Shown here piece after piece: positions 3,004-31,974 of a stretch of DNA of 33,977 nucleotides. Source of the DNA: Bacteroidota bacterium (GTDB lineage Bacteria > Bacteroidota > Ignavibacteria > Kapaibacteriales > UBA961); NCBI GenBank assembly GCA_018266765.1, contig JAFDZU010000042.1:45525-79501 (forward strand), written 5' to 3'. How positions within the stretch are numbered: position 1 is the first letter of the stretch; the number at the start of each line of letters is the position of its first letter. Both the position numbers and the translations under genes were made by a program. Under the pieces are notes generated by a model. The model was not told where the DNA came from and did no database searches. It saw only the letters and a program-made list of their open reading frames with translations.

Positions 3004-3010
3004 AAATATA

Positions 3011-3047
3011 AAAAAGCGACAAAATTAAAATAATCTTGTCGCTTTTT
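3011..3047. terminator. bidirectional intrinsic terminator between convergent pepP and rseP
   Basis: A perfect 12-bp stem, AAAAAGCGACAA (3011-3022) against TTGTCGCTTTTT (3036-3047), encloses a 13-nt loop. The stem ends in an A run on one side and a T run on the other, so it can terminate transcription from both pepP (+) and rseP (-). It sits in the 70-nt gap between the two stop codons. Confidence 0.85.
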
Positions 3048-3073
3048 ACATTAACTTTTGAAACGAATTTCTA

Positions 3074-4462: not shown

Positions 4463-4489
4463 AATATCTATTTTTATGATATGAATAAT

Positions 4490-5215: not shown

Positions 5216-5884
5216 AAAATCTTAAGTATAGTTTGTTTATTGCACTGTCAATAACCAATTCTTTAAAAGTGTAAAGTATACCATTTACAATTACATCATA
5301 TAAATCCTTGTATTCTTGCTCTGTTATAGGTAAATATTCACCATGCGCGATGTAGTTTCTTTTATCAACTAGATCGTTATCTATCGTTTTTTGAAGATTC
5401 CTATTATATTTTTCTCTATACCTATTATGAAATGTATTTATATCTATTCCTATCAACAAGCATACATCTTCAAAGATATCGTATTTTAAGTTTGAAGTTC
5501 GTATAGGATAAGTAGAAGAAAAATACGCTATTTCACTCTGTCTCTTAAAGAAAGTATTTATTACATCATTATGTATTATCAGTTTTTTTGTGCCTAACAA
5601 AGATTCTATTTCACTTCTTAAGACTATACTAACAAAACAATTATTTAAATCAGCAATAGTAGCACCTTGAAAAGATACAAATTGATAGTAAAGATCTGAA
5701 GACTTTTTTATAAACCCTTCCCGTGTGCAAACAACAAAGAGATTCCAGCTCTTATCATACCATCCTTTGCTTTGCCTTTAGCCTGAATAACAGAATTTCT
5801 AAAATTGGACAACTCTGTAATTCTCCATGCGTACTCTTTCGCAATTAACTTTTCTAAAATGTCAAGTGTTCTCGGCTCATTCAT
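5196..5884 (-). pseudogene. MAE_28990/MAE_18760-type HEPN nuclease, disrupted by a one-base frameshift
   Basis: Two frames together encode a complete HEPN protein of about 229 residues. The 5' frame starts at ATG 5884-5882, overlapping the DUF262 stop by 8 nt, and reads MNEPRTLDILEK..EYAWRITELS..IRAGISLLFAHGKGL before a TAA. Adding one base between 5720 and 5725 turns HGKGL-stop into HWEGFIKK, the family hallmark AHWEGFIK. The frame then stays open through SSDLYYQFVSFQG to the stop at 5198-5196. The C-terminal half holds the HEPN RNase motif R-x4-H in DKRNYIAHGEY. HEPN proteins of this type are predicted RNA-cleaving effectors in defence loci. As read, only a 55-residue fragment would be made. 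A TTG at 5600 could start a C-terminal fragment, but I see no reason to believe in it. A sequencing or assembly error is the main alternative. Confidence 0.85.
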
Positions 5885-6971: not shown

Positions 6972-8260
6972 ACTACAGTGCTTTCAAGTTTTAAAAATTT
7001 TTCTTTGTATTTAAAATCAATGCTCTCATCTACATTTGTCAAACCATTTTTAATTAAATGAGCATTAATAAATGTCTTGTTTTCTAAATAAAGATAGCAA
7101 AGTAAATTATTTTCATCATCATACTTGACTCTGTCATATCTAAGAAAAACTCGTTTCCCTTTTGTTCTGTCGGTCAAAAATGCTGTTGCTTTACCGTTAA
7201 CAATCGGATCTTCTTTAACCCCAATAAGTCTTACAATAAGTCCGTTGGTCAAACAAAGAATTTCAGGGCTGATAACTTCTTTTACCGTAAAAAATTCTTC
7301 TCTCAATGATGTGCTTTTTTGGTCAATTTTAGAACCAAACTGAAGTTTCTTTACATCAATCTTCTTATCGAGTGCGTGAGGATCTTTAAAAACATACGGT
7401 AGTTTTTGGAGTTCACTTTCAAAATCAAATTTGGTTTCATTTTGTTTGAAAAACTCATATCTTGTTCCATTCATATCTTTTTGATGTGAACCAAGCTTAT
7501 CCTTGATTAGAGGAATAAATTCAGAATTAATCTCGTATCCTACAGAATTTCTATCTAAATTTTTAGCAGCTAAAGCTGTTGTACCACTACCAGCGAAAGG
7601 GTCAAGAACTGTTTCACCAACGAATGAAAACATTTTAATAAGTCTTTTTGGTAATTCTTCAGGATACATTGCTATGTGTCCGTTCTGTCTCGCACCCGCA
7701 AAATTCCAATGTCCAGCAAAATATGTATTCCATTCTTCTGCTGTCATTTTTGAATGTTCTTTTTGTTCTCTTGTTGGTCTCGGTGCATCTCCCAATTTTT
7801 TGAAAGTCAAGATAAATTCATAGTCTAATTTCAAAATTCCATTTCGTGGATATGGATATGATCCCATTTGAACTCCACCACCAGTTGTATTAGAAGTCGT
7901 TACTTTCTGCCAAATAATAGCCCCCATGTAATCGAAGCCAATATTTTCACAAAATTTAATAATTTCCTCTCTAATAGGAATTACTTTGTAACGACCGTAA
8001 TATACAGCTCTAGCAAATTGGTCACCAATATTAACACATAGACGACAACCGTTATGGAGAACTCGATAGCATTCTTTCCAAACTAAGTTTAGATTATTTA
8101 TATAATTTTCATAGCTATCATGGAAGCCAATTTGATTATCAGTTCCATAATCTTTTAATTGCCAATACGGTGGAGAAGTAACCGCTAAATGAACTGAGTT
8201 ATTTTGCAATTCAGTCATTTGTCTGCTATCACCGTTGATTATAGTATGTATAGTTTTCAA
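6968..8260 (-). CDS. beta-class DNA methyltransferase (N4-cytosine type) with C-terminal SNase-like domain
   Basis: The 430-residue protein has catalytic motif IV TSPPYW at residues 28-33 and the SAM-binding motif I DPFAGSGTT at 220-228. The order IV before I marks the beta class, and SPPYW is typical of N4-cytosine enzymes. Given the MjaI-type endonuclease in the same cassette, it most likely protects CTAG. Residues about 328-425 form a second domain resembling the staphylococcal-nuclease OB fold: VRLIGV around Arg344, then a GKRVFLRYD strand, then CYLYLENKTFINAHLIKNGL. The SNase catalytic Asp40/Thr41/Glu43 positions are replaced (VKEDP) and the Arg87 position is missing, so this tail is probably a non-catalytic binding module. 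The start is TTG, supported by AGGAG nine bases upstream. It is the first gene of the cassette, 27 nt downstream of dxr. Confidence 0.88.
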   Translation of the reverse strand: MKTIHTIINGDSRQMTELQNNSVHLAVTSPPYWQLKDYGTDNQIGFHDSYENYINNLNLVWKECYRVLHNGCRLCVNIGDQFARAVYYGRYKVIPIREEIIKFCENIGFDYMGAIIWQKVTTSNTTGGGVQMGSYPYPRNGILKLDYEFILTFKKLGDAPRPTREQKEHSKMTAEEWNTYFAGHWNFAGARQNGHIAMYPEELPKRLIKMFSFVGETVLDPFAGSGTTALAAKNLDRNSVGYEINSEFIPLIKDKLGSHQKDMNGTRYEFFKQNETKFDFESELQKLPYVFKDPHALDKKIDVKKLQFGSKIDQKSTSLREEFFTVKEVISPEILCLTNGLIVRLIGVKEDPIVNGKATAFLTDRTKGKRVFLRYDRVKYDDENNLLCYLYLENKTFINAHLIKNGLTNVDESIDFKYKEKFLKLESTVV

Positions 8261-8269
8261 TTATTATTT

Positions 8270-8274
8270 CTCCT
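8270..8274 (-). promoter_or_regulatory. Shine-Dalgarno AGGAG fixing the TTG start of the methyltransferase
   Basis: On the minus strand AGGAG is followed by nine bases and TTG (8260-8258). No in-frame ATG gives a longer product, so this site supports the TTG start. A TATAAT hexamer (8280-8275) abuts it. That hexamer could be a -10 box for a very short leader or chance in AT-rich DNA. The strong site contrasts with the M16 and rseP starts, which lack one. Confidence 0.55.
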
Positions 8275-8287
8275 ATTATATTCCCAA

Positions 8288-9436
8288 TTAGTGCATTTCT
8301 TTTCTGACATATGCCCGAGTTTCTGCATCTGCATTTGCAATTTCGTCTAACGACGGATGAGGAACATTTTGAATGTTATCGAGAGCTTTTGCTATCAATT
8401 TGGGAATATCAGTAAACTTGATTTTCTCACCCAAAAACTCTTGAACAGCTATTTCATTTGCCGCATTAAGAATTGCAGTAGCAGTTCCTCCAACTTTCAA
8501 AGCATCAAAGGCAAGTTGCAAACAAGGAAATTTCTGCAAATCAGGTGGATAGAAGGATAAATTCCCAATTGAAAGAAGGTCGAGTCGAGGAAAATTCATC
8601 GCGATATGATGCGGATAATTCAAAGCAAAAGCAATCGGAACTCTCATATCCGGGGTACCGAGTTGCGCCTTGACACTACCGTCAATAAATTGCACAAGCG
8701 AATGAATAATACTTTGCGGATGAACTACAACATCAATTTTTTCAGGCGATAAATCAAAAAGCCATTTAGCTTCGATTACTTCAAACCCTTTGTTCATCAA
8801 GGTGGCAGAGTCAATCGTAATTTTATTTCCCATTGACCAATTGGGATGTCGAAGTGCTTGAGCGAGCGTAATCTCACCAAACTCTTCAAGCGGTAATTGC
8901 CGAAACGGGCCGCCCGATGCAGTCAGTATAATTTTCTCAATTTCCGAAGAATCTTCACCTGTTAGACATTGAAGAATTGCACTATGTTCGCTGTCAACGG
9001 CAAGAATTGGAACATTTTTTTGCTTTGCGGCTTTGGTAATTATTTCACCTGCACTTACGAGTGTTTCTTTATTCGCAAGCGCAAGTATCGCTCCTGATTC
9101 GATTGCAGAAAGCGTTGGCATTACCCCGCTAAATCCCACGAGTGACGACATGACGATTGTGTTTCGGCTGTCGCCGGCGGCCTCACAAACGCCTTCTTCT
9201 CCACAGAGTATTTCCCCTTTGAATAGTGTTGATTTTTTGAATTCACGATAATAATGAGGGTCGGAAATTGCTACTCCACGTGGATTATACAGCAAAATTT
9301 GCTTTTCAAGTTCATCAATTTTGGAATTAACTGTCAGATAGTTAATTTCCCATTCATCACGAGCAATATCAATCACTTGCAAGGTTTGGCAACCAATTGA
9401 GCCGGTAGAACCAAGAATAGAAATTGTTTTGCTCAT
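8288..9436 (-). CDS. dxr: 1-deoxy-D-xylulose 5-phosphate reductoisomerase
   Basis: The 382-residue enzyme converts DXP to 2-C-methyl-D-erythritol 4-phosphate with NADPH, the committed step of the MEP isoprenoid pathway. The N-terminal Rossmann motif GSTGSIG occupies residues 9-15. The divalent-metal and substrate region is seen in AVDSEHSAI, with NKGFEVIEAKWLF and the HPQSIIHS loop further on. The length is normal and the protein appears complete. It follows rng by 31 nt and is in turn followed by the restriction cassette. rseP, its frequent neighbour in other genomes, lies beyond that cassette. The gene is expected to be essential where the mevalonate pathway is absent. Confidence 0.96.
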   Translation of the reverse strand: MSKTISILGSTGSIGCQTLQVIDIARDEWEINYLTVNSKIDELEKQILLYNPRGVAISDPHYYREFKKSTLFKGEILCGEEGVCEAAGDSRNTIVMSSLVGFSGVMPTLSAIESGAILALANKETLVSAGEIITKAAKQKNVPILAVDSEHSAILQCLTGEDSSEIEKIILTASGGPFRQLPLEEFGEITLAQALRHPNWSMGNKITIDSATLMNKGFEVIEAKWLFDLSPEKIDVVVHPQSIIHSLVQFIDGSVKAQLGTPDMRVPIAFALNYPHHIAMNFPRLDLLSIGNLSFYPPDLQKFPCLQLAFDALKVGGTATAILNAANEIAVQEFLGEKIKFTDIPKLIAKALDNIQNVPHPSLDEIANADAETRAYVRKEMH

Positions 9437-16108: not shown

Positions 16109-17941
16109 ATGATTTTATATTTTATTCGTCGCAGTTTAGTATTGGTTCTAGTGTTATGTTCGACCTATGCTTCAAGTTATTCAGTTGAAATTGACACAGA
16201 GCTTGCCGCAAAACTCCAAACTCACGTTAAATACCTTACTTCTGACGAACTCGAAGGTCGTAGTTCGGGTAGCCAAGGCAATCACAAAGCAGCAGAATAT
16301 ATTGCTTCTTTTTTTAAACAGAATAATATTCTACCACTTGGAAGTTCATATTTTCAGGAATTCACTGTCCCAACTTCAATTAAGCTTGGCGAAGGAAATA
16401 AATTTGGTTTTGAAATTACAATTCAGCAAGTTGGTGTACCTATTGACCAAGCAAAACCTGTAAAAGTAAATTGGAAAGCCGGAAATGAATACACACCACT
16501 CTCTTTCAGTGAGAATGGAACAGCTTCGGGAAAACTTATATTTGCCGGCTACGGCATTTCATCTCCCGATTCAAAATATGATGATTATGAAGGGGTTGAT
16601 GTAAAGGGCAATGTCGTCATAGTTCTTCGTGGCTCACCGGATGGTAATGATAATCACGGTAAATTCGGATCTTACATTTCACTTCGCTCCAAAATTCTGA
16701 CAGCTCGCGAAAAAGGTGCATCAGGAATTATATTTGTAAGCGAAGCGGGCGATGGTGCAGATTCACTAATGGAGCTTACGCTCGGAACATCGGATAAAAA
16801 TTCAGGATTGATTGCTCTTCATGCAAAAAGAAGTTCAATCGCTAAACTCTTCCCACGAGACAATCCTCTGGCAACAATTGATGCACAGATAATTAAAACA
16901 AAAAAACCAAATAGCTTTGAAATTCCAAATTTAAAATTAAATATCAATGTTCAATTAATAAGAGTAGAAAGCCCAACTTCGAATGTTATTGGAGTGGTTC
17001 GAGGTACAAATCCAGCTCTTGCTAATGAATATATTGTTGCCGGAGCACATTTTGACCATCTTGGCTGGGGTGATGAAGGTACACTTTATTCAGGAAAAGA
17101 ACGGAAGATTCATTATGGAGCAGATGATAATGCTTCTGGAACAGCAGGAATTATGGAACTTGCCGCAATGATTGCACGAAATCCAATGGAACGTCCTGTC
17201 GCGTTTATGCTTTTTAGTGGCGAAGAGCGCGGGCTTCTCGGTTCGGCATATTATGTTAAGAATCCGATTATTCCCCTCGAAAACACGATTTGTATGTTAA
17301 ATATGGATATGATTGGACGGCTTAAAGATTCCAAACTGAATGTTCAAGGTGTTGGCACTTCATCACATTGGCAGAATTTGATTGACTCGCTTGGTAAAGT
17401 GTATTCGTTTGCTATTTCAAGCTCGGCTGATGGTTTCGGACCAAGTGACCATTCTTCATTTTATAGTAAAGAACGTCCTGTAATATTTATCTTTACAGGG
17501 TTACACAGCGATTACCATCGTCCGACTGATACATGGGATAAAATCAACTATGAAGGCGAAGCAATGGTTGTCCATTTTGCAGAATCTACACTTAGAACAA
17601 TTAGCCATACTACGGAAGTACCTGACTTTATAAAAGTAAAATCAACCACGCAAACAACCGGTGGTTTTAAAGTTTCGATTGGTATTATACCTGATTATTC
17701 TGACAATCCTAAAGGATTAAAAATAACCGGAGTTCGTGAGGGTGGCCCTGCTGAAAAAGCAGGATTGCAAGCAGATGATATTATCACACAATTTGGAACG
17801 ACTACCATCAAGAATATCTACGATTATACAGCTGTTTTAGGTCAAGCTAAGGCAGGCGAAAAACTTAAAGTAGTAGTGTTACGTGGACCAAGAGAAGACA
17901 AAGAAGTAACTTTCGAAGTTATCCCCGAAGGACGCAAATAA
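16109..17941 (+). CDS. exported M28 family metallopeptidase with PA and PDZ domains
   Basis: This 610-residue protein begins with a signal peptide (to about residue 26, ending STYASSYS). A PA domain (about 140-260: GVDVKGNVVIVLRG, ASGIIFVSEAG) lies within the M28 peptidase. The zinc and catalytic residues are visible: His314 (AHFDHLG), Asp339/340 (GADDNASG), Glu372/373 (SGEERG), Asp400 (NMDMIG) and His470 (SDYHRPTD). Residues about 515-605 form a PDZ domain (GPAEKAGLQADDIITQ). M28 enzymes remove N-terminal amino acids with a di-zinc centre. The PA and PDZ domains probably govern substrate access. AAGGA lies eight bases before the ATG. It precedes the PorU-like gene by 237 nt. No T9SS C-terminal sorting domain is seen, so the periplasm is the likely site. 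Confidence 0.92.
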   Translation: MILYFIRRSLVLVLVLCSTYASSYSVEIDTELAAKLQTHVKYLTSDELEGRSSGSQGNHKAAEYIASFFKQNNILPLGSSYFQEFTVPTSIKLGEGNKFGFEITIQQVGVPIDQAKPVKVNWKAGNEYTPLSFSENGTASGKLIFAGYGISSPDSKYDDYEGVDVKGNVVIVLRGSPDGNDNHGKFGSYISLRSKILTAREKGASGIIFVSEAGDGADSLMELTLGTSDKNSGLIALHAKRSSIAKLFPRDNPLATIDAQIIKTKKPNSFEIPNLKLNINVQLIRVESPTSNVIGVVRGTNPALANEYIVAGAHFDHLGWGDEGTLYSGKERKIHYGADDNASGTAGIMELAAMIARNPMERPVAFMLFSGEERGLLGSAYYVKNPIIPLENTICMLNMDMIGRLKDSKLNVQGVGTSSHWQNLIDSLGKVYSFAISSSADGFGPSDHSSFYSKERPVIFIFTGLHSDYHRPTDTWDKINYEGEAMVVHFAESTLRTISHTTEVPDFIKVKSTTQTTGGFKVSIGIIPDYSDNPKGLKITGVREGGPAEKAGLQADDIITQFGTTTIKNIYDYTAVLGQAKAGEKLKVVVLRGPREDKEVTFEVIPEGRK

Positions 17942-18178: not shown

Positions 18179-21100
18179 ATGAAATTCTCCACCATTTTAT
18201 CGCTGATTACTATTATAAGTATAGTCATTACGAATTCAGTTTATTCGCAGAAATCAGTTCATATCCATCCAAATACCAGTGGTGTTCGCATTAGTTTACG
18301 AGGATTGCAGGCCACAATAAAATCCAATCTCGATTCATCTGGGACAAGTGCATGGATCACTAATTCTCGTTATACAATTCCTCTACAAAAAGGAAATGAT
18401 GCAGCTCTGCAGAAGCTCAGAATTTCAATTGCAATTCCACCCTCAACTGAAATCACACCTCTATTACACAACTATCGTAGTCGAAATGTAGCAACTACTT
18501 CAATTGCAAGAGTATCAGCATTAAAAGACTTCTCTTCAAATACCAATCCGATGATTTTTCTGCCAAGTTTTGAAGTGAAACCATCGGTTATTTTGAGGAA
18601 AATAGGAATTCAACGTGGTGTAATAATTGCCGATATTGAAATTCAGCCGTTTCAGTATTCTTCAAAGACAGGAGAACTTTCGATACTTGATTCAGCAGAA
18701 ATTGATATTCCGTTTGGCAGGTCTATTCCAAACAGCACAGAAGAACTTACAAAAGTTGAGAATGGGTTATTTTCGGGAATAGAAAATGCAAGTCAAATTC
18801 CTGCTCTCCGACGTATCAAATTACTTGAGGATGCAAAAGCACCACGACCTTTAAATTCAATTGATTCAATTAATACATGGTATAATCCGAAAACAACCTA
18901 TCTTCGTATAGCTACTAACTCAGATGGAGTTGCACGGTTGCAGGCAAATACTATTCTCGAATCTGCTCCCGAATGGAAAGGACTTACAACCAACGGACTC
19001 CATTTGCTTTATAAAGGTAAAGAATATCCATTTGGCTCTAATGATTTTAATGACATAATTGACCAAAATGACGAGTATTATTTTGCAGGAAGACGAACAA
19101 TAGGTGACTCCACATGGCAGAATTGCATTACACCTGATGCAGTTTTTTATCTTTACTACGATGCTACGATATCCGGTAAACGTTTGGCGCAATTTCCCGA
19201 TGTGACACCAACCACAACAGATATACAATCGGTATTTATCAATAAACACATCGAAGAAGACCATCTTTATTTTTGGGGTGATAACGATCCAAATGATTCG
19301 CGACTTTCACAATATAAGTGCGATATACTGAATAATGAAGGTTTTTACTGGGTTAATTTGAATAATAGTATTTTTGAATATTACAAGACATTTAACTATC
19401 CCATTTTACTTGCTCCTTCCGAACTAACAGGTGATATGCTGACTGCCAAAGCATTTTTTCATACTACAACCAAGAATTTTACTTCAGTACCTAATTATAA
19501 TGTTATTAGCTCTATAAATTCAACCGAACAATCTAAAAATCCTATAGATGGTATATCTAACGCTAATTCAGAATTTACTATTGAGTCATCTCAATTTTTG
19601 GGAGGAATTAATAACTTTTCCATTAAATCTGATACAGTTTCAAATAACATGAATGGAACTGCACGAACCGGAGATTTATTGATTGACTATATAATACTTT
19701 CCGGTAAAGTAAAACCATTTGCAGAAAATGGAAAAGCTGATTTCAAAACTGAAAATTTAGCACAACCTTCAAAGCTGAATATTCGTGGATTCCGTTCTTC
19801 GCAAGTTGTAATAATTGATACGATTCTATCGCTTTTTACTATTAAAACCGGAACACAAGGCACAACTATTCGGTCAGGAGGAATAGGCGAGCAAACTCCT
19901 CGTTTATCAATAGTTATCAATGATAGTGTTGTGGTTTCCGTTGATTCATCAGCTCTTTTTGTATCAATAGTTGATGCACCATCCTTTTCTACTATTCGTT
20001 TGAAACGCTTTGACCAAGCAGGCAACGGACTTCGCGCATTTATTGATACTTCTCCGTCTGAAAGTATTATTACAGCTGTGAGTAATTTCCCAACAATATC
20101 TCAAGAAATCAAACAAGTTTTTGGCGGGTTAGGTAGCCAAGAAATCAATAAATTAAGCACAAATACTACTTGGACAGGAGTTTTCCAAAAAGGAAATAAT
20201 TCCATTAGAAAAGAAAAAAGTGGAGCAGTTTCGTCGCTTGCAGAATTCATACCACATATCGGCGGAAAAGCATATCAAGCTGACATTGCACTACGTGCGG
20301 GAAATAGTTATTCTCTCCAATCTGCCGATTTACTTTCTGCAGAAATTCCTTCTGTAAGTCGCGAGCCATTAAGTAACCTTCATGATACTACCCAACAATT
20401 TGATGCAATTATTATTACTCATAGTAAATTTAAAGAATCAGCTAATCGCCTTGCAAAACACCGCGCATCTCAAGGTTGGAAAATGACTGTAGTCACAGTA
20501 GAAGATATTTACAAGGAATTCTATGGAGGTGAGAAATCGCCTCATGCTATCAAAGCATTTTTGAGATACGTATATAATCATTGGCAAAAACCAACACCTG
20601 CATATCTGACAATGTTTGGAGATGCTTCGTGGGATCCGCGCAAGTTTGAATATAATTCAGTTGAAACAGATTATGTTCCATCGTATGGTTATCCTGTCAG
20701 TGATTTTTGGTTTACCCTGCTTGATGGCAATGATTTGATCCCTGAAATGGCAGTCGGACGGCTTCCCGTTCGCTCAATAGTCGAAGCAAATGACATGGTG
20801 GACAAACTCATTGAATATGATTCTTTGCCAGCAGCTCCTTGGAAAAAGAAGTTTCTATTTCTTTCAGGTGGTAGTGGTACTGAAGGTGTAAAATTCTACA
20901 ACAAGTTTTATGATTTTGCTGACTATCTCCTATTCTATCCTATTTGCGGAGATACTACTCGCATTCGAGGTGATTTGGGTGTCGAGTTTGCTAAACCGAC
21001 CACAATTAGATCAGCTATAAACGATGGAGCACTCTGGCTCTCATTCTTTGGACATAGTGCTCCAACTATTTTCGATCTTGACGGCTGGGCTGTAGAGGAT

Positions 21101-24031
21101 CTGAATAATCGTGGGCGCTACAATGTTCTTGCCACCTATTCATGTAATAGTGGTGCCTATGCAAACCCATATGGAATTGCACGTAATGAATCGTATGTAA
21201 TAACTCCACACAAGGGTTCGATTGCCTCATTTGGCAGTACATTTATAGGATATGTGGATGATGATGCAGCATTACAATATTCTTTTCACAAAAATATGGC
21301 TAATGATACGGTTCGATTACTTGGTGATATTCTCAACAAAGCAAAACGCGGTTGGGAAAGAGATTTAGAAAACACACTTATGCAATACTCTTTAATAGGA
21401 GATCCACTTACTCGTTTAACATTAGATAACAAACCGGATTTGTATGCCATGCCACAAGAAGTAATTATTACTTCAACAACCGACGACCCTCTCATATCTG
21501 AAATAGACTCGGTTGTTAAGGCCACTTTTACAATTCGTACTGCAGGACTTGGCAATAGACAAGAAATCCCATTGCTTCTCATTCATAGTTATCCTGGAGG
21601 TATTGATTCAACTCAAATGACTATAAGTGAGTTATGCAACCATGAAAAGTTAAATACATTTTTGATTGTTAGAAATCACCCCGGAACGCATACATTTACA
21701 ATCAATATTGACCCGGAAGGAACCATCAACGAAACCCAAAGAAGTAATAATTCAACGACAGTTTCTTTTGAAGTATTCAGTGCCGGACTTGCCGCTTTAG
21801 ACCCGTTGCCATTTTGGGATGTAGATGCCCAAAGCCCTACTTTTCGGTTAGTATTGCCCCAGAAGATTGCTCAAGCAGAATATGAATTTATGCTTCAAGC
21901 AACGAATGGCGATACGGTTATTTACATTAATACTGATAAGCCATCGCAAGAATTAACGCTCCATGAAGCGTATATTGAATGGTTGCCCAATATTAATCTC
22001 ATGAACGGTAATTCATATACATTTTCTGCAAGAGTAAAGAATGAAATCACAGGAAAATTAAGTGCGTGGCTCCATATTCCTTTTCATGCAGTTTCTTCCC
22101 AAACTGAATATACAGCACAGTGGAAACAGCAATCACATCAAGAAATCCTAACAAATGCATTACGAGATATTATTGTTGAAAAAAAGGTAGATTCAACCTA
22201 TCAATTACGATTGAATACATACTCAGTCCCTGTTTCAGTAGTTTCCAATAATGGAAATTCATACGCTAAGATAAAAATTGGTGAAGCAGAACCAATCAGC
22301 TTTAATATTTATACTCGGTTTAATCTTGTTCACCTAACGCCGAGTGACACTAATTTTAAATATTTCGACTACGAAACATTTTCACCATCAGGAAGATCCG
22401 GCTCGGCAGAAGACATGGTCCGTTATTTACGCGATTCAGTAGCATGGGGAGATGTTATCGTGCTTGCACCGGGTGGAGCTTCATTTAATTCGTTTTTTGT
22501 ACATTATCAACCTGACTCAATAGGGAGTATGAAGAGTCTGACTGAAACGCTGAAGAAACAATACGGCGCAAGTCTCATTGATTCAATATATTTGCGCACT
22601 CATTATCCCGACGGCACACCAATTGACTCAGTTTATTATATTGCAACAGGATATGCCTTAATAGCCCGCAAAGACTCACTTCCTCACCCTATTAAAGAAG
22701 CATACAGTTATTGGAAAGATACCGTAACTATTGAAGATACGATTCAATTTTATTCGTATTCCGGTGAAATTGCTTCTCCGATAATCGGTCCTGCATCTGT
22801 TTGGGATTCCGTCAAAATTATTTCCGACATTCCTTTAAAGTCATCGAAGAAAATAGATATTTATGGCAAAGAAAGCAGTTCCGCAACCGAAAAGCTCCTA
22901 AAAACTGATTCAGTTACGACTATTTCACTTCGAGAAGTTGATGCCAAATTGTATCCATATCTTAGCATTAAAACATCACTTAATCGAACTTCCTATCTTG
23001 TTGAACCAATTATTTCGGGATTTGAGTGTATTTATAAACCAACTGTTGAATATGCAATTTTACCAAGCAAAACGTCTATTATAGTCGATAATGTTCTGCG
23101 AGGCGATACTTCCCTCTTCAATTATGGACTAATGAATATTGCAAAACGCGGACTGCCCGACACCTCAGAAGTGGCTACAACTATTTATCCTGAACAAGGA
23201 AGTGGCAGAACATTTACGTATTACCATCCGTTGCCAAAACTTCTTTCAGAGGAAACGATTGGCTTTACCGATACAATACTAAGTAAAGAATTTGCAACTA
23301 CTTCTCGTATTCAACCCGAAATAGACGGTCAAAATAAACTTCATGAAATATATCGCTTTAATAATAAATCAGCAACTTTCTATCATGTTAGAGAAGATAG
23401 CATTAAGCCCAAAATCGAATTTCGAGTTGATGGTGTTTTGGTAAAAGATTATGATTTTGTAGCACCCGAACCATTGTTTGAAATAATCATCCATGATAAT
23501 TCAAATTTAGCGATTGATTCCGCTAAAATCCGCATTCGACTTAACAGATTTATTCAGCCGGACACTACCTCGATTAATGCTAAGTTTGAAACAATTCAAG
23601 GACAAGGTGATACTCGTGCACGACTTTCGTTTATTACCAAACGTTTAGAAGAAGAAAACATCATTCAAATTACCGTCGAAGATGCTTCAAATAATAAAGA
23701 TACACTTAAGATTCGGCTGAATATTGCTAAAAATGCTTCCATCGAAAATCTGTTTGCAATTCCTACACCGACTGACAATGAAACGACTTTGTCATTTACG
23801 TATATAGGTCAGAATCAAGATTCTCCTGCAACAGTTGATATTTTCAGTCTTTCGGGACAAGCTATTCGCTCTCTAAAGTCGAATGTACGGATAGGACATA
23901 ATTCTGTACATTGGGATGGAAATGATAATTATGGTAGTCGAGTTGCACCCGGAATTTATGTGTATCGTTTGAATGTACAAGCTCAATTATACAGTGATCC
24001 TCTGTTTGGTAAAATTATGATAACACGCTAA
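18179..24031 (+). CDS. porU: giant PorU-like C25 (gingipain-family) cysteine peptidase of the type IX secretion system
   Basis: The 1950-residue protein starts with a signal peptide (MKFSTILSLITIISIVITNS, cleavage after VYSQ likely). A long N-terminal region is followed by the C25 peptidase domain (about 741-1085), with catalytic His959 (FFGHSAP) and Cys989 (YSCNSGAY), 30 residues apart as in gingipains. A CARDB-like adhesion domain follows (about 1090-1200). Residues about 1360-1500 resemble the ILEI/FAM3 domain: FNLVHLTPSD, FDYETF, WGDVIVLAPGG, ATGYALIARKD. The C-terminus (about 1859-1950) is a FlgD-Ig/Por-type domain: VDIFSLSGQAIRSL, VAPGIYVYRL. PorU is the T9SS sortase that removes cargo C-terminal domains at the cell surface. 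Proximity to sprA supports that role, but the length is much greater than classical PorU (about 1150), so a C25 cargo protease remains possible. Confidence 0.82.
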   Translation: MKFSTILSLITIISIVITNSVYSQKSVHIHPNTSGVRISLRGLQATIKSNLDSSGTSAWITNSRYTIPLQKGNDAALQKLRISIAIPPSTEITPLLHNYRSRNVATTSIARVSALKDFSSNTNPMIFLPSFEVKPSVILRKIGIQRGVIIADIEIQPFQYSSKTGELSILDSAEIDIPFGRSIPNSTEELTKVENGLFSGIENASQIPALRRIKLLEDAKAPRPLNSIDSINTWYNPKTTYLRIATNSDGVARLQANTILESAPEWKGLTTNGLHLLYKGKEYPFGSNDFNDIIDQNDEYYFAGRRTIGDSTWQNCITPDAVFYLYYDATISGKRLAQFPDVTPTTTDIQSVFINKHIEEDHLYFWGDNDPNDSRLSQYKCDILNNEGFYWVNLNNSIFEYYKTFNYPILLAPSELTGDMLTAKAFFHTTTKNFTSVPNYNVISSINSTEQSKNPIDGISNANSEFTIESSQFLGGINNFSIKSDTVSNNMNGTARTGDLLIDYIILSGKVKPFAENGKADFKTENLAQPSKLNIRGFRSSQVVIIDTILSLFTIKTGTQGTTIRSGGIGEQTPRLSIVINDSVVVSVDSSALFVSIVDAPSFSTIRLKRFDQAGNGLRAFIDTSPSESIITAVSNFPTISQEIKQVFGGLGSQEINKLSTNTTWTGVFQKGNNSIRKEKSGAVSSLAEFIPHIGGKAYQADIALRAGNSYSLQSADLLSAEIPSVSREPLSNLHDTTQQFDAIIITHSKFKESANRLAKHRASQGWKMTVVTVEDIYKEFYGGEKSPHAIKAFLRYVYNHWQKPTPAYLTMFGDASWDPRKFEYNSVETDYVPSYGYPVSDFWFTLLDGNDLIPEMAVGRLPVRSIVEANDMVDKLIEYDSLPAAPWKKKFLFLSGGSGTEGVKFYNKFYDFADYLLFYPICGDTTRIRGDLGVEFAKPTTIRSAINDGALWLSFFGHSAPTIFDLDGWAVEDLNNRGRYNVLATYSCNSGAYANPYGIARNESYVITPHKGSIASFGSTFIGYVDDDAALQYSFHKNMANDTVRLLGDILNKAKRGWERDLENTLMQYSLIGDPLTRLTLDNKPDLYAMPQEVIITSTTDDPLISEIDSVVKATFTIRTAGLGNRQEIPLLLIHSYPGGIDSTQMTISELCNHEKLNTFLIVRNHPGTHTFTINIDPEGTINETQRSNNSTTVSFEVFSAGLAALDPLPFWDVDAQSPTFRLVLPQKIAQAEYEFMLQATNGDTVIYINTDKPSQELTLHEAYIEWLPNINLMNGNSYTFSARVKNEITGKLSAWLHIPFHAVSSQTEYTAQWKQQSHQEILTNALRDIIVEKKVDSTYQLRLNTYSVPVSVVSNNGNSYAKIKIGEAEPISFNIYTRFNLVHLTPSDTNFKYFDYETFSPSGRSGSAEDMVRYLRDSVAWGDVIVLAPGGASFNSFFVHYQPDSIGSMKSLTETLKKQYGASLIDSIYLRTHYPDGTPIDSVYYIATGYALIARKDSLPHPIKEAYSYWKDTVTIEDTIQFYSYSGEIASPIIGPASVWDSVKIISDIPLKSSKKIDIYGKESSSATEKLLKTDSVTTISLREVDAKLYPYLSIKTSLNRTSYLVEPIISGFECIYKPTVEYAILPSKTSIIVDNVLRGDTSLFNYGLMNIAKRGLPDTSEVATTIYPEQGSGRTFTYYHPLPKLLSEETIGFTDTILSKEFATTSRIQPEIDGQNKLHEIYRFNNKSATFYHVREDSIKPKIEFRVDGVLVKDYDFVAPEPLFEIIIHDNSNLAIDSAKIRIRLNRFIQPDTTSINAKFETIQGQGDTRARLSFITKRLEEENIIQITVEDASNNKDTLKIRLNIAKNASIENLFAIPTPTDNETTLSFTYIGQNQDSPATVDIFSLSGQAIRSLKSNVRIGHNSVHWDGNDNYGSRVAPGIYVYRLNVQAQLYSDPLFGKIMITR

Positions 24032-24647: not shown

Positions 24648-25053
24648 TATTGAAGTGTAGAATAGTTAAAAATATGAATAAGAATAGTTGTTGAATTATT
24701 GAATCACAAATTAAATTTAGCATTCAAATATAAGCATTCAATTTTCGCTGTACAATATTCTTAAGTTATCGGAGTTTCTAAGAAATACCATTTAAATAGC
24801 GAAACTCATTTTTAATCAAAATGGAATCTATAAAAGTAAATTACAAGTACTAACACAATAGTTTTTGAAGTTTTCAGAATTATATTTTAAAATTTTTCTT
24901 GCTTAAGCGAAGGAAGCAACGTACTTTTGCACTTAACTTATTAGCATCTTAATCCCTTCATAATTCTTGCACTATTTAAGTGAGCCGCCATTTGTATTAA
25001 TGCTACGATTTGGAATCAACACGAAATTCGTCTCACAATCCTTCGTAGGACTA
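24648..25053. other. divergent intergenic region between maf and sprA
   Basis: AT-rich DNA with no supportable gene. It contains a well-formed sprA promoter at 24899-24929. An imperfect inverted repeat, GAGTTTC (24772-24778) and GAAACTC (24801-24807), is also present, but it is too short to interpret. Confidence 0.5.
24899..24929 (+). promoter_or_regulatory. Bacteroidota-type promoter of sprA
   Basis: TTG (24899-24901), 20 nt, then TACTTTTG (24922-24929) is an exact fit to TTG / TAnnTTTG. Transcription would start near 24935, leaving a leader of about 120 nt to the preferred ATG at 25054, or about 70 nt to the ATG at 25003. Confidence 0.65.
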
Positions 25054-28000
25054 ATGGCTACAACCATTCAGCACTTCCGACGGTCTCGGTTTACGTCCGT
25101 CGTCTATATTGTGCCTATAATCACACTCCTTTTCTGCATTTTGCCGGAATTAGGAAGTGCGGCTACATTAGAATATAGTGACTTAACTCTACTTTCTTTA
25201 CGAATTCCATATTTCGTTCCTGAATTGATGTTTGTTGCACCGACCGATTCTACAGACACAGTTCGAAAGCCCCCGATATTCATCCAACAGCCATTATTTA
25301 GAGGTTCTATTCTGCCTCCTCAATATGGCGAGAAACACCCTGCTTTGCCTGCCGGCTACAAAATTACATCTCAAATTGATTCTTCGGGCACTACATTTTC
25401 GCAAAGAGAATCCTGGAACGGCATCGAAACTGCGTCTCCAAGTTTTCTCACACTCGATAAATATCTTGAATATCGCCGCGATAAAGAACGTCGGCGGATT
25501 TGGGATTCACTAACCTCTGCTTATGATCTTAAAAAAGCACTTTCAGGTGGTGATTTAGCAAGTATTCTCAGCCAAACCACCGGAATTTCACTTCCTTTTC
25601 CTCCGAATCCTATTTTTGGAATTTTTGGGAAACCTGAAATAAGTATAAATGTTACGGGTGATGTCAATGTGCGTGCAGGATGGCGTTGGGATTCTCAAAA
25701 TCAAGGTTCTACCTCAGCTTTCGGACAGACTCAGTCAGGTCCACTTTTCTCCCAAGATATAAACTTGAACGTCAGTGGTAAAATCGGCGACAAGCTCAAA
25801 CTTGGAGTTGATTGGAATACGAAACAAACATTTGAACTTAACAATAAATTCAATATTGGATTTTCGGGCAATGACGACGATATAATTAAACGTGTTGAGC
25901 TTGGGAATATTCAATTCCCTGTCCCGAGCACTCTTATTGGTGGGGCACAAGCTCTCTTCGGTGTGCGAGCAGATTTTCAATTTGGTCCGCTATTTTTGAA
26001 AACTGTTGCTTCACAACGTCGAGGTGAACGTAAATTTGTCCAAGTGCGGGGCGGTGGAGCACTCAAACAGCAATTTCAAATCCATGCTTATGACTATGCA
26101 CGAAATAATTTTTTCCTCGATACTGTTTACAAACGTATTTATTCGGAATATTATAAAAACACCACACCGGTAATTCCAAGCGACGCAATTCAATATCAAA
26201 TAAAAGAAATTGAAGTGTGGGAATCGGCGAGCGATGTTAAAGAAGCCGCAACTGCAAGTGAAGCAATTGCTTACGCAGACCTTGAGCCAATTCAAAAAGG
26301 ACAACGATATCCAGATTCAAAAAAATATGGAACAATTGAAGCCGGAAAAATAGAGCGCGGTAAATTCGTTCAATTAGATAAAAACCGTTATGATTACGAC
26401 CGGAACTTAGGTCGGCTTACTATCTTTAATCTTCGGAGTGAACGTACGTACGGCGTTTCGTATCGTATTGAAAATCTTAATAGTTTTTCGCCGGATGATG
26501 ACTTGGTTTATGGAGTACCTGCGGCAAACCGTGAGCATAATACCAAAGACACACTTATTCTTAAACTCATAAGTCGTCCTAACTTACAACCTGCCTTCAA
26601 AACTCTTTGGTCACGGCAGATGAAAAACATCTATTCTATTGGTCAGAGTAATGTTAATACTGCCGATGCACAAATCAATGTGTGGTATTTGCGACCAAAT
26701 AATGACTCATCTGATGTTCTGCCCGGCTCTAATGAAAAAGTCGTTACAGTACTAAGAGTCGATCAAGTAAACAACTCAACCGGTGAGCCAAAACCTGATG
26801 GTTTATTCGATATAGCGGCAACCCAAGTTACCCAACAAACACAACAACAACAATTTGGCGGTATTGGCGGACAACAGCAACCTCCTCAATTATCACAAAG
26901 TTCGGCTTTTTTTAATGCTACTCGCGGCGAAATTATTTTTCCAAGTGTCGAACCGTTCCGTAAAGGATTGCGTGATTATTTTGCATTAAAAGGAAATCCT
27001 CAAATTGCTGAACAGTATGTTTTTGATGCAGTTTACGACACAACAGTTGAGGTAGCTCGATTGCAAACAAGTCGTGATAGGTTTATTATTTCCGGTGCCG
27101 CTACCGGTACTTCTTCAGGTGGTGGAAATCGTATTTCGCTTGGTGCATTTAACCTTGCACCGGGCAGTGTTCGTGTTACCCTTGATGGAGTTGCCCTGCG
27201 TGAGAATACTGATTATTATGTGGAATATTACACCGGACAAGTAACACTCACAAACCCAAGAGCTACACTCCCGAATTCAAATTTAGGAATTGAGTACGAA
27301 CAGCAGGATTTGTTCAACCTCGCCACACGAACTATGGTAGGACTTCGAGCGGATATGGATGTTCTCAAGCGGCGAAATGTACAAAGCAGTTTGGGCATGA
27401 CTTTCATGCTGTATAATCAATCGTTGGTGCTCGACCGTGTGCGATTAGGCGATGAACCGGTAGCAAATTCCATGATTGGATTCGACGGTTCTTTAAATTT
27501 AGATACTCCATGGCTTACCAAAGCGTTAGACGCATTGCCGTTTTTGGATACAAAAGATAAATCATACTTAAAGTTAAAGGGTGAGATTGCAGCTATGTTT
27601 CCCACACCGAACAAACGAACTTCGGATGTAGCTTCGGACAATGGTTCGGCAGTGGCGTATTTAGAGGATTTTGAGGGTGCTCAGCGTTATATTTCTCTTG
27701 GACTATCTCCCTCACAGTGGTCACACGCTTCTCAACCGATCGACTCTACTATCTTCGTTAACGATACAGCATTTGCAAAGTCATTTTTCCGTGGCAAATC
27801 CTATTGGTATCAGTATTTTTTAGGACGCACTCCACAGGAATGTGTTTATCCTAACCGTTCGATTGTAGTAGGACGTTCAAATATAAACGACCTCAAAATC
27901 AGATTTAACCCTTATGAACGCGGGATTTATAATATGAACCCCGAATTTGTGGATAAATCAAATCCAACCTATCAGACTGACTCAGCAAAATACACCGACT

Positions 28001-31000
28001 ATATTACTGCAAACAAAGACAAAGTTTGGGGTGGAATGATGCGTCTTTTCTCGAATTTCAACACCAATTTCGATAATGAGAACATAGACTACATCGAAAT
28101 TATGATGAATGTTACCGACAGAGATTTTGGTGATCAACTCAGAAAAGGTACGCAAATGTTTATAGACATCGGGCAAATAAGCGAAGATGTCATTGCTAAT
28201 AAATCACTCAATACAGAAGATGGATTTACCACCGGAAGTCCAATTCCTAATAATATCATTGATCCGGGTGAAGATGTGGGATTAGATACATTAAACAACG
28301 AAAATGAAAAGCGGGTTTATCCTTTCCCGTTAAATCTTGAGGATGACCCTGCACACGATGATTATGATTTTAATTTCCAAAAAGGTGTGAACGACCAAGT
28401 AGAATCTGATTTTTATAAGTATAATAATTACGAAGGTAATGCAAGTAAAGCCGAACTCGGACAATTCCCCGATAAAGAAATCTTGAATGCCAATAATGGT
28501 CAAACGATTGCTTTAGATAATAGTTATTTCAGTTACGAAGTTAATCTGGACCCAAATCCTGCCACAAACCCTCAGATTGTGGGCGAAGGTGGATGTAATT
28601 CTAATTGGCGGCTTTATCGTATTCCTGTTCGTCGTCCGATGCGTACCGTGGGAACTCCTTCGTTTTCAAACATTCAATATGTGAGGATTTGGTACAAAGG
28701 CGGAAGACTTGCCGCTGATATAGCTGAATGGCGTTTTACCGGCTCGCAATGGCAACGTTCTAACACCTTCCAACCGGGTGTTACACCACTCGACAGCACA
28801 TTAAGTGTAGCTTTTGTCAATGTGGAAGAAAATAGCGGTGCACCGGATTACTATACTGTTCCACCCGGTGTTCAGCGTCCACGTCAATTAAATAATCCTG
28901 ACCCAAATCAAGACATTCGTCTGAATGAACAATCAATAGCAATCAGAGTAAAGAATTTGCGCTATAATGATGAACGGATGGCAGTTCGTGTGTTGCGCCA
29001 AACCGATATTTTCAACTATAAACAACTCAAATTTTTTGTTCATGGTGATGGTTCTATGCCTGATAATTTACCTGTTGGTGCAGTGCCAACTGCATATGCC
29101 TATCTTCGATTCGGAATTGACTCGGCTAACTATTACGAATATCGCCGTCCCCTGCTTCGCAATTGGCAAGATGTGGGAATTCCTCTGACAGATTTAACAG
29201 CAATCAAACAAGCACGCGATTATAATCTTCAAAACGAACGTCAGGAATTTCCTGTTCCCGGCGACCCCCAAGCTCGTTATGTAATTAAGGGAAATCCAAC
29301 TCTGACAAAAGTAATGTTCTTAGGGTTTGGTGTGGCAAATCCCGCCGCTCGCTTTCCGAATGACCTTACGACGACGATGTGGGTGGACGAACTCCGTCTT
29401 ATTGACCCCGAAAACAGCACTGATTGGTCAGCTATCGGTAGTGCGGAATTAAAACTTGCTGATGTCGGTTCGGTTATTGGTACATTTTCACGGTCGAATC
29501 CTAACTTTCATAAACTCGAAGAACGCTTTGGTAATAGAATTGCCTCAACGAATTTTACAATTCAGATGCAAGGAACATTAGAGAAATTCCTTCCCAAAGA
29601 ATTCAAAGAAACGAAACTTCCTATCAGTTACACACACTCCGAAACTTTTGAGAAACCTGTGTATGAAGCACAAAGTGATATTAATGTAGAAAAAGCTGCC
29701 GCAGTTGCCTATAATGCTGCAATTCAGGCAGGTCAGACTCCGGCACAAGCACTAAGCGTTGCTGATGCTGTAACTACTCGATCGCAAACTCTTCGTGTAC
29801 AAGATCAATGGGCAATGTCCGGTGTTAAAATCGGAGTTCCCATTAATCATTGGACTGTGCGCGAAACAATAAATCGTGTTACAATCGGCTATGATTATTC
29901 CCAAACATTTGAACGCTCACCTGTAGTCGCCGAACGTTTCAAGTGGCAATGGCATTTGAATGTTGCTTATGGTCTTAATTTGCCTAATATGGGATTAGAG
30001 CCACTAACGTGGAGCGATAAAATACCAATTATTGGCACTTATAAATCGTGGAAAATAAATTTCTTACCATCAAACTTTTCTACAAGTTTGGATATGCGGC
30101 GCGGGCGAGCTACCGAACAGTCACGTTTTCTCGAAATACCAAGTCCGGTTATCAGGGAGTTTTCAGCTCAACGTTCGGCACAATTCTCATGGAAACTGAC
30201 CGAAAACGGATTCTTAAGTCCAATTATTGATTATAATTTCTCCACCGGAAGCACTCTTGTTCCATTTGAATTAGATGAATTTGGCAGACAACGAACAGGA
30301 AACGAACTTTCCAAACTGATGTTCTTCAATGGAAAACTTGTGAATTTGGGCGACGACGGACTGCATAATCAAAATGTTACTATCAATTTCCGCCCGCGAT
30401 TCCCCGATTTATTCGGGCTCAATACCTATTTAGAAAACACAGGAGTTTATACCACTAAATATGAATGGCGCAATCCCCTTCAGCCGGATTCGACTCTTCG
30501 TGATGCTGTGAAATATGGTACTGTTACCAGCAATTTATCGCTTAGTTCACGACTTCAACTGCGACTGATGAGTGATAAATGGTTTGGTATTACTTATGGC
30601 AAAGTTGATACAAATACTTCGTTTTTTGGGACAATCGGTAAAATCTTTAAATCTATCTTTTTGGATTACGACGAAATTAAACTGACATTTAAACAAGACA
30701 ATCTTTCACGCAATCCCGGTATATTCGGCGGAAACGGAATTACTAATCAATGGCGTGGTTTATTCGGTTTGGGACAAGATAATATTTGGGGGCCGTCAGC
30801 GGCTTATCAGCTTGGTTTGGTAACAAGTCCACATGGAAATTTTAAGGTTCGTGGTAGTTCTTCATTCCCGTTTTTTGGATTTGATACCGAAGAAGGATTG
30901 CGTCCGCCGAATGCAGTTTTACCCGAGAATTTCAATCAAAATAATTCTCTTGAATTCCGTACAAGTCGGCAATTATGGGAAGGTGCAAATATTGACCTGA

Positions 31001-31974
31001 CTTGGAAATCACAGTTTGGGTATAATAAGAATCAAACAGTCGTAACGGATGCTTTTGGTAATCAACAATATACAAATCTTACAGTAACGGAAACGTATGG
31101 CAGAACATATTTGAGTTTGCCCAAATTCCTGATGTTTGCTCCGCTGAACAATACCGTCGAGCATGTTATTGATCTCTATAATGAAAAGCGGACTGCAATT
31201 GATGCTACCACCGGAACCGATACCGTTCGACGCAATCAATTACTCTCGAATGCCCTTTCGGAATCGTTCCATGATGGTTTGGAGTCGTTCAAATTTCTAC
31301 CCCTTGCTCTTCGAAAGATTATGCCAAGTGTTAATTGGTCGTTCCGCTGGGATGGTATTGAAAAATGGGGATTACTTGGCGGAGTCGCTCGGCGAATTGC
31401 TTTAGAGCATACCTACGCTTCCACCTATCAGGAGAATGCTCGTATTACCGACAACGGACGCTTTGTGGACGGACAGCAAGTTGAGCTTGGGTTTCAGCCG
31501 CTTATCGGACTTACCATGAGTTTCGACGAAACAAAACTTAAAGGTGTACTCACAGGAACTGTACGGTACAATACAAAAACGTCGTATTCGCTGACTTCGG
31601 CAACTTCTAATATTTCTCGTACTTCGTCGAGCGAACTTTCTATTCAAGGTTCGTATTCACGGCGTGGATTTACGTTTGCATTACTCGGAATTGACCTTCA
31701 AAACGACCTCGAATTTGGTTTCCTCGGTTCGATTAAACGTAGTAATCGAGCAAACTATGACCTACTTAAATCATCGAGCACAGCACCGCAAACTATTGAC
31801 GGAACTACTCAAATTACTATCGAGCCAAGTGCGCGATATTCTATGAGTAATCGTGTTACGGCTCGGCTGTTCTTCCGCTATGAAGGTACAGTAAACGAAG
31901 GGGCAACAACTCCGGGATTCAGCACAACGCAAGTAGGGTTGGATATTCGTATTTCTATTTCCGGCGGTCGGTAA
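25054..31974 (+). CDS. sprA: SprA, outer-membrane translocon of the type IX secretion system
   Basis: The protein has 2306 residues from the chosen ATG, within the usual SprA range (about 2300-2500). SprA forms the very large outer-membrane beta-barrel through which T9SS cargo leaves, and in gliding species it is also needed for motility. I recognise the SprA N-terminal region (KIGDKLKLGVDWNT, VELGNIQFPVPS, SLIGGAQALFGVRAD), the repeated beta-rich barrel segments, and conserved stretches such as SAVAYLEDFEGAQR and TTMWVDELRLI. A Gln-rich patch (TQQTQQQQFGG) lies near residue 592. The start at 25054 places a signal peptide (MATTIQHFRRSRFTS then a hydrophobic core to about residue 35) at the N-terminus. 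ATG 25003 or TTG 24967 would add 17 or 29 residues. It has its own promoter. The maf gene separates it from the PorU-like gene. Confidence 0.93.
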   Translation: MATTIQHFRRSRFTSVVYIVPIITLLFCILPELGSAATLEYSDLTLLSLRIPYFVPELMFVAPTDSTDTVRKPPIFIQQPLFRGSILPPQYGEKHPALPAGYKITSQIDSSGTTFSQRESWNGIETASPSFLTLDKYLEYRRDKERRRIWDSLTSAYDLKKALSGGDLASILSQTTGISLPFPPNPIFGIFGKPEISINVTGDVNVRAGWRWDSQNQGSTSAFGQTQSGPLFSQDINLNVSGKIGDKLKLGVDWNTKQTFELNNKFNIGFSGNDDDIIKRVELGNIQFPVPSTLIGGAQALFGVRADFQFGPLFLKTVASQRRGERKFVQVRGGGALKQQFQIHAYDYARNNFFLDTVYKRIYSEYYKNTTPVIPSDAIQYQIKEIEVWESASDVKEAATASEAIAYADLEPIQKGQRYPDSKKYGTIEAGKIERGKFVQLDKNRYDYDRNLGRLTIFNLRSERTYGVSYRIENLNSFSPDDDLVYGVPAANREHNTKDTLILKLISRPNLQPAFKTLWSRQMKNIYSIGQSNVNTADAQINVWYLRPNNDSSDVLPGSNEKVVTVLRVDQVNNSTGEPKPDGLFDIAATQVTQQTQQQQFGGIGGQQQPPQLSQSSAFFNATRGEIIFPSVEPFRKGLRDYFALKGNPQIAEQYVFDAVYDTTVEVARLQTSRDRFIISGAATGTSSGGGNRISLGAFNLAPGSVRVTLDGVALRENTDYYVEYYTGQVTLTNPRATLPNSNLGIEYEQQDLFNLATRTMVGLRADMDVLKRRNVQSSLGMTFMLYNQSLVLDRVRLGDEPVANSMIGFDGSLNLDTPWLTKALDALPFLDTKDKSYLKLKGEIAAMFPTPNKRTSDVASDNGSAVAYLEDFEGAQRYISLGLSPSQWSHASQPIDSTIFVNDTAFAKSFFRGKSYWYQYFLGRTPQECVYPNRSIVVGRSNINDLKIRFNPYERGIYNMNPEFVDKSNPTYQTDSAKYTDYITANKDKVWGGMMRLFSNFNTNFDNENIDYIEIMMNVTDRDFGDQLRKGTQMFIDIGQISEDVIANKSLNTEDGFTTGSPIPNNIIDPGEDVGLDTLNNENEKRVYPFPLNLEDDPAHDDYDFNFQKGVNDQVESDFYKYNNYEGNASKAELGQFPDKEILNANNGQTIALDNSYFSYEVNLDPNPATNPQIVGEGGCNSNWRLYRIPVRRPMRTVGTPSFSNIQYVRIWYKGGRLAADIAEWRFTGSQWQRSNTFQPGVTPLDSTLSVAFVNVEENSGAPDYYTVPPGVQRPRQLNNPDPNQDIRLNEQSIAIRVKNLRYNDERMAVRVLRQTDIFNYKQLKFFVHGDGSMPDNLPVGAVPTAYAYLRFGIDSANYYEYRRPLLRNWQDVGIPLTDLTAIKQARDYNLQNERQEFPVPGDPQARYVIKGNPTLTKVMFLGFGVANPAARFPNDLTTTMWVDELRLIDPENSTDWSAIGSAELKLADVGSVIGTFSRSNPNFHKLEERFGNRIASTNFTIQMQGTLEKFLPKEFKETKLPISYTHSETFEKPVYEAQSDINVEKAAAVAYNAAIQAGQTPAQALSVADAVTTRSQTLRVQDQWAMSGVKIGVPINHWTVRETINRVTIGYDYSQTFERSPVVAERFKWQWHLNVAYGLNLPNMGLEPLTWSDKIPIIGTYKSWKINFLPSNFSTSLDMRRGRATEQSRFLEIPSPVIREFSAQRSAQFSWKLTENGFLSPIIDYNFSTGSTLVPFELDEFGRQRTGNELSKLMFFNGKLVNLGDDGLHNQNVTINFRPRFPDLFGLNTYLENTGVYTTKYEWRNPLQPDSTLRDAVKYGTVTSNLSLSSRLQLRLMSDKWFGITYGKVDTNTSFFGTIGKIFKSIFLDYDEIKLTFKQDNLSRNPGIFGGNGITNQWRGLFGLGQDNIWGPSAAYQLGLVTSPHGNFKVRGSSSFPFFGFDTEEGLRPPNAVLPENFNQNNSLEFRTSRQLWEGANIDLTWKSQFGYNKNQTVVTDAFGNQQYTNLTVTETYGRTYLSLPKFLMFAPLNNTVEHVIDLYNEKRTAIDATTGTDTVRRNQLLSNALSESFHDGLESFKFLPLALRKIMPSVNWSFRWDGIEKWGLLGGVARRIALEHTYASTYQENARITDNGRFVDGQQVELGFQPLIGLTMSFDETKLKGVLTGTVRYNTKTSYSLTSATSNISRTSSSELSIQGSYSRRGFTFALLGIDLQNDLEFGFLGSIKRSNRANYDLLKSSSTAPQTIDGTTQITIEPSARYSMSNRVTARLFFRYEGTVNEGATTPGFSTTQVGLDIRISISGGR

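Follow-up and report, generated by a model that had tools for sequence, protein, structure and literature searches.

The stretch of DNA analysed here (33,977 nucleotides, hereafter the window) encodes a long C25 peptidase that resembles PorU, the sortase of the type IX secretion system (T9SS), and that contains domains of the ILEI/FAM3 type. Is this protein the PorU of its genome in an enlarged form, an additional sortase or a cargo protease, and what might the ILEI domains contribute? PorU keeps its own C-terminal domain and stays on the surface, and FAM3-type domains are familiar chiefly from cytokine-like proteins of animals and from a glycosyltransferase implicated in muscular dystrophy; domains of this sugar-binding type in a PorU relative suggest a joining of protein to surface polysaccharide. 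The question bears on how the T9SS picks the cargo to be anchored and its glycan acceptor, since a widespread PorU relative with such a domain, often beside polysaccharide genes, is a candidate for another way of anchoring proteins and extends FAM3-type domains to a bacterial sortase family. The reading that we tentatively prefer (probability about 0.45) is an accessory T9SS sortase or protease, separate from PorU, with a second ILEI domain (ILEI-2) that docks a glycan in the family at large.

The reading frame proved exact in coordinates and length as initially annotated, and its features are collected in Table 1. The C25 dyad named from the sequence is equally secure: the motifs FFGHS and TYSCN fix the positions of the two catalytic residues, which are invariant throughout the alignment, the window protein included. 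The three motifs on which a FAM3/ILEI-like segment had been proposed start at residues 1396 (FDYETF), 1425 (DVIVLAPGG) and 1492 (YALIARKD).

Table 1. Features of the window protein and of two neighbouring genes (nucleotide positions in the window)
Feature	Position	Strand	Basis or remark
C25 peptidase with two ILEI/FAM3-like domains, PorU2-like clade	18179..24031	+	1950 aa
Probable Sec signal peptide, residues 1-23	18179..18247	+	Translation judged by eye
ILEI-1, residues 593-673	19955..20197	+	Pfam PF15711, 28.0 bits, cut-off 27; inserted after the PorU-like N-terminal beta region, ahead of C25
C25 catalytic domain, residues 744-1080	20408..21418	+	Pfam PF01364, E 5e-73
Catalytic His959	21053..21055	+	29/29 aligned homologues
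Catalytic Cys989	21143..21145	+	29/29 aligned homologues
Weak CARDB-like Ig segment, residues 1140-1194	21596..21760	+	19.5 bits, cut-off 22.7
ILEI-2, residues ~1362-1500	22262..22678	+	Segments of orthologues and profile comparisons
Ig-like domain, residues ~1737-1850	23387..23728	+	phmmer alignment with P. gingivalis PorU 6za2
T9SS type A sorting-domain-like C-terminus, residues ~1862-1936	23762..23986	+	TIGR04183, 20.0 bits, cut-off 23
M28 peptidase with PA and PDZ domains	16109-17941	+	Same strand, directly upstream; Pfam
SprA/Sov translocon gene	24967..31974	+	TIGR04189, 932 bits; next same-strand gene

The regions following the peptidase domain are less distinct. A CARDB-like domain had been reported and a match is present, but it falls below the Pfam cut-off and is suggestive only. 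The C-terminal FlgD-Ig/sorting domain also gave scores under the thresholds (FlgD_ig 25.3 against 27 bits, Por_Secre_tail 20.0 against 23), but the region aligns to the C-terminus of PorU, and in the 29-homologue alignment the residues P1862, P1864, G1893, G1925 and Y1927 are conserved there, the motif residues being invariant. CHU_C scored 14.3 bits in the window protein, under its Pfam cut-off of 27. In a phmmer comparison with PDB sequences, P. gingivalis PorU (6za2) was matched at residues 714-1083, which is the C25 domain, and at 1737-1934, which corresponds to the last two domains. Among named records the closest, at 65% identity, belongs to an Ignavibacteriae groundwater MAG (L036).

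Relation to PorU and PorU2

The presence of C25 with both catalytic residues and of matching flanks is what one would expect if the window protein were the genome's PorU, enlarged. This reading was rejected on three grounds, namely a PorU gene next to PorV elsewhere in the genome, the C25 tree, and a score of only 242.7 bits with the T9SS_sortase/PorU model NF033707, whose equivalog cut-off is 420. The genome, of 3.7 Mb, has Pfam C25 matches at three sites: on contig C81, in the window, and, weakly, on contig C8. A separate, shorter PorU, whose presence had been named at first reading as refuting the proposal, does exist: it is the one on C81, a frame of 1350 aa that scores 883.9 bits with NF033707 and has a PorV-family gene (298 bits) next to it on its downstream side. 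PorZ is found on C8 (344.8 bits, cut-off 260), and the genome has five PorV-family genes above the cut-off. Since canonical PorU, PorV and PorZ sit elsewhere, the window protein is an additional one; it is related to PorU in its C25 domain, as the initial annotation had it, but it is not an oversized form of the genome's own PorU. The weak C25 match on C8 (25.6 bits; L003, 1072-3222) belongs to a 716-aa protein whose C-terminus looks sorting-domain-like by eye.

The C25 phylogeny that had been called for separates the two proteins in the same sense. In a quick IQ-TREE analysis of 81 rows, which carries a long-branch warning and leaves the placement of the short C25 rows unsure, the window protein lies outside the PorU clade (26 rows, SH-aLRT 100) and within a single clade formed by all 42 C25-ILEI rows (SH-aLRT 92, not starred), so that the genome's own PorU and the window protein stand on opposite sides. 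The proteins of the window's order, including the window protein, form a clade of 22 (SH-aLRT 96). Short C25 rows resembling gingipains are placed separately, with weak support (76), and His and Cys are present in every PorU and C25-ILEI row. The tree omits 11 of 91 C25 rows, these being the near-duplicates L009, L016, L018, L019, L030 and L031 and the partial or odd extractions L006, L012, L100, L121 and L127; L055 yielded no C25.

With PorU (6za2; NF033707) the window protein shares the C25 Cys and His, a PorU-like stretch before them, and an Ig-like domain and a sorting-domain-like C-terminus after them; it differs in belonging to a separate clade, in being about 600 residues longer, in having two ILEI domains and in not lying beside PorV. 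Its best NCBIfam model is PorU_rel_Nterm/PorU2 (NF052324, a putative T9SS sortase), with 260.3 bits. Four other C25-ILEI proteins scored 393.8, 221.8, 434.2 and 359.5 bits, and all five are under the cut-off of 450; the one nearest to it (L053, 434.2 bits) shares the C25 clade of the window protein (support 92). That both NCBIfam sortase models fall below their cut-offs speaks against our preferred reading. The PorU2 model does not cover ILEI-2, because its 879 positions end soon after C25, and the window's order adds ILEI-1 to the PorU2 arrangement. NCBIfam already lists the putative PorU2 family, so the notion of a further sortase related to PorU has a precedent; the present analysis contributes the ILEI-2 that constantly follows C25, the ILEI-1 specific to the order, a partly conserved sugar-contact triad and the polysaccharide gene neighbourhoods. 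Literature searches that covered neither preprints nor subscription journals found no paper naming PorU2 and none joining ILEI with gingipain, and the matches for PorU with ILEI look, by title, like chance word matches.

The family is widely distributed. Within the order, 53 of 61 genomes gave a long match to the window protein, and the eight others all belong to one family (f8), in which only a shorter C25 frame was matched. Across the phylum sample, ILEI was detected in 77 of 296 genomes (E<=0.001). When the 17 order matches are excluded, 57 of 65 ILEI matches share a reading frame with C25, and 56 of these 57 start 784-1078 nt after it, the remaining one, at 2701 nt, being a tandem second copy. 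Among the eight matches in no C25 frame, one (G235) adjoins a C25 frame and is probably a split gene; the rest are close to the end of a contig or belong to shorter frames.

These data bear on a rival explanation, namely that the protein is a cargo protease of the gingipain/PorU superfamily, on the surface or secreted, which digests external proteins and which the ILEI domains only hold to the surface or matrix. The separate existence of canonical PorU, PorV and PorZ and the protein's own sorting-domain-like C-terminus are in keeping with it, as are tandem copies in some genomes (G112, G214 and G288), which would also fit ordinary cargo and to that extent count against the reading that we prefer. 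However, a gene present in 53 of 61 relatives with conserved PorU-like N- and C-terminal architecture, the separate (if weakly supported) position of the short gingipain-like rows, and the proximity of polysaccharide genes in relatives from outside the order argue against this explanation, which we regard as rather unlikely. The existence of a shorter PorU does not by itself make the protein a mere cargo protease, because the clade is distinct and widespread and has a fixed C25-ILEI architecture.

ILEI domains and sugar-contact residues

The FAM3/ILEI-like segment at about 1360-1500 noticed at first reading is real, although the window copy itself gives no Pfam match there. Its identity comes from orthologues and profiles: in segments aligned to residues 1330-1515, ILEI (PF15711) was found in 24 of 29 (E<=1, best 1.1e-8), with the next family in only 2 of 29, and a profile of the 29 sequences reached, in PDB, the POMGnT1 stem (3.5e-5), FAM3B (6.9e-5), FAM3C (2.7e-4) and FAM3A (0.0033). 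At the weak end of this list, Apolipoprotein L chains (0.0013-0.018) are intermixed, followed by dihydrofolate reductase at 0.04. The same profile matched the region after C25 in C25-ILEI proteins of other families at 99.5% (13 rows, most of them from the same class) and still at 96.7% with seven C25-ILEI rows that share only the phylum; the flanks of PorU (0.1%) and of other long C25 proteins (0.3%) gave no match.

A further ILEI domain, ILEI-1, had gone unnoticed at first reading and is the sole ILEI above the Pfam cut-off in the window protein, if narrowly. Over the segment aligned to 500-740, ILEI was matched in 15 of 25 orthologues; the corresponding profile reaches FAM3B in PDB (4.6e-8), and the ILEI-1 and ILEI-2 profiles match each other (hhalign 92.1%, 6.4e-7). 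In PorU, and in C25-ILEI proteins from outside the order, the stretch preceding C25 aligns with no more than the first ~50 columns of this 500-740 segment, at probabilities of 47-61%; ILEI-1 therefore appears to be an insertion that is restricted to the window's order. AlphaFold models of the two ILEI segments, made with two-sequence alignments only, had pLDDT values of 34.8 and 33.8, too low to be informative on the beta-beta-alpha FAM3 fold; this counts against the reading that we prefer.

In the POMGnT1 stem, Arg129, Asp179 and Arg207 touch GlcNAc, and C. elegans Fam3L1, which lacks two contact residues, fails to bind whereas Fam3L2 binds, as described in passages of PMC9802357; parts of PMC9437275 describe the Arg/Asp pair for a module encoded by a phage. 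Mapped onto the family through the profile-to-PDB alignment, with residue numbers counted by hand along the sequence, the complete triad is found in 21 of 77 ILEI-2 domains, that is in 0 of 27 from the order and in 21 of 50 from elsewhere. At least two of the three residues are present in 40 of the 77, and none in 23; the set omits L030, L051, L054, L080, L083, L091, the second copies of L038 and L044, and others. The window ILEI-2 has T, G and A at the triad positions, with Arg1380 one position off, and in the alignment of the ILEI-1 profile with FAM3 structures no contact residue is seen by eye. Both window domains are homologous at the profile level to the POMGnT1 stem, FAM3A-C and PF15711, from which they differ in being fused to a bacterial C25 peptidase and, in the window copy, in having lost the triad.

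The T, G and A of the window and the want of a full triad in any of the 27 order members weigh against the preferred reading. They would suit an accessory sortase in which the ILEI domains bind no sugar and serve instead a structural purpose or protein-protein contacts, docking to a PorV-like barrel or to SprA. The incomplete triad in all 27 order members tested, the contact-free ILEI-1 and the position of SprA as the next same-strand gene in the window are all compatible with this, but the triad is intact in 21 of the 50 members outside the order, sugar genes adjoin many of those members, and the adjacency to SprA is not conserved. We consider such a purely protein-docking role improbable.

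Gene neighbourhoods and a possible glycan acceptor

PorV, the usual though not strictly defining neighbour of PorU, does not adjoin the window gene, whose neighbours are the M28 peptidase, a Maf-like gene on the opposite strand between it and SprA, and SprA itself; a lipoyl synthase gene lies downstream. No sugar genes were recognized by Pfam or NCBIfam among the identified neighbours. A conserved linkage between PorU2-type genes and SprA was considered and discarded, since the two adjoin only in the window's genome among 55 genomes tested; in G073, coordinates place the C25-ILEI gene about 9 kb from SprA, and the distance in G031 is about 14 kb. Of 41 genomes of the order inspected by eye, only 1 has an initiating sugar transferase (PF02397) at a distance of up to 30 kb from the gene, which, like the lack of sugar genes beside the window gene, weighs against the preferred reading.

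A different picture emerged outside the order. The 25 commonest families in the flanks of 18 C25-ILEI loci (122 ORFs) are headed by GT4 (11 members for its top model), GT2 (10) and WecG/TagA/CpsF (7), together with GDP-mannose dehydratase and epimerase families, while the corresponding list for 17 PorU loci (87 ORFs) is led by PorV (13) and includes starch-synthase-type transferases (4). Homology searches of the flanking ORFs placed WecG relatives at 7 of 18 C25-ILEI loci versus 0 of 17 PorU loci, GT2 at 6 of 18 versus 0 of 17, and GT4 at 7 of 18 versus 3 of 17; these loci are related among themselves, so the counts are descriptive and we claim no independent-sample p value. At least one of six seed families occurs at 12 of the 18 loci, a figure to which the ImpL63-like family, of unproven role, adds no locus. 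In one genome (L046), the C25-ILEI gene lies amid WcaJ, Gmd, Fcl and ManC-type genes. PF02397 is within 30 kb of at least 11 of 56 C25-ILEI genes outside the order (2.46 expected) and, among the matches listed, of 0 of 51 PorU genes (2.23 expected). Long C25 genes without ILEI also have it nearby in at least 7 of 17 cases (0.70 expected), and the polysaccharide linkage is therefore not specific to the ILEI clade. This, with GT4 at 3 of 17 PorU loci, counts against our preferred reading. The initial suggestion of glycan docking thus has indirect backing in the relatives, through triad residues and polysaccharide gene neighbourhoods, but not in the window copy, which has neither the three contact residues nor sugar genes among its identified neighbours; glycan binding by the window protein itself is putative.

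The accessory-sortase reading draws on the architecture, the His/Cys dyad, the separate clade, the separate canonical set and the gene neighbourhoods of the relatives, from which export, cleavage, transfer and sugar binding by the window protein are predicted. According to it, the protein would leave the cell via the T9SS by means of its own C-terminal domain and would stay on the surface, as PorU does. There it may cleave the sorting domain of some cargo and hand the acyl-enzyme to a glycan acceptor; it would be a second PorU-like enzyme, with an acceptor or cargo of its own. Across the family as a whole, ILEI-2 would be the docking site for that acceptor, probably a polysaccharide produced by the glycosyltransferases encoded next to many relatives, and might serve it as PorZ serves A-LPS. 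In the window's order, ILEI-1 appears to have been inserted and the canonical sugar contacts to have decayed; binding there may therefore be weaker, altered or replaced by protein contacts. A more far-reaching proposal would make the C25-ILEI proteins a second class of T9SS sortases, in which a lectin-like ILEI-2 captures the polymer of the WecG/GT4/GT2 clusters, not an A-LPS-type acceptor, and presents it to the C25 thioester. We think this unlikely; if true, one cell would run two parallel lines of protein-to-glycan anchoring.

To our knowledge, exosortases are unrelated to C25 peptidases. In the PEP-CTERM/exosortase-EPS system, genes for a sorting enzyme likewise lie among polysaccharide genes, as outlined in parts of PMC7468200; exosortases are described there as inner-membrane enzymes, while the window protein is a predicted outer-surface C25 peptidase that works with the T9SS. 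A further FAM3/POMGnT1-stem-like domain on the prokaryotic side is CBM_1 of streptococcal phage Tal, which has the same Arg/Asp pair and is designated a carbohydrate-binding module; in the passages of PMC9437275 that deal with it, it belongs to a tail protein without a peptidase.

Other combinations of C25 and ILEI were also encountered. In the same phylum, ILEI occurs without an in-frame C25 in G265, G217 and G084 (frames of 287-288 aa) and in G185 (708 aa), and L055 has ILEI in a 600-aa frame without C25 (E 5.7e-23). L038 encodes a 2399-aa C25 protein with tandem ILEI domains after C25 (3874-4146 and 5749-6018), and two adjacent C25-ILEI genes occur in one genome in L044 and L051 and, by coordinates, in G288. 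A further C25 type is represented by L128, L129 and L130 from genus g9 (family f6) of the order, with frames of 1661-1686 aa; its C25 clusters with some of the long C25 proteins that lack ILEI (SH-aLRT 95). Finally, L056 encodes a 1889-aa C25 protein without an ILEI match (1802-7471), and directly next to it lies a PorV2-like gene (7490-8569) that scores 58.5 bits with NF052325, below the cut-off.
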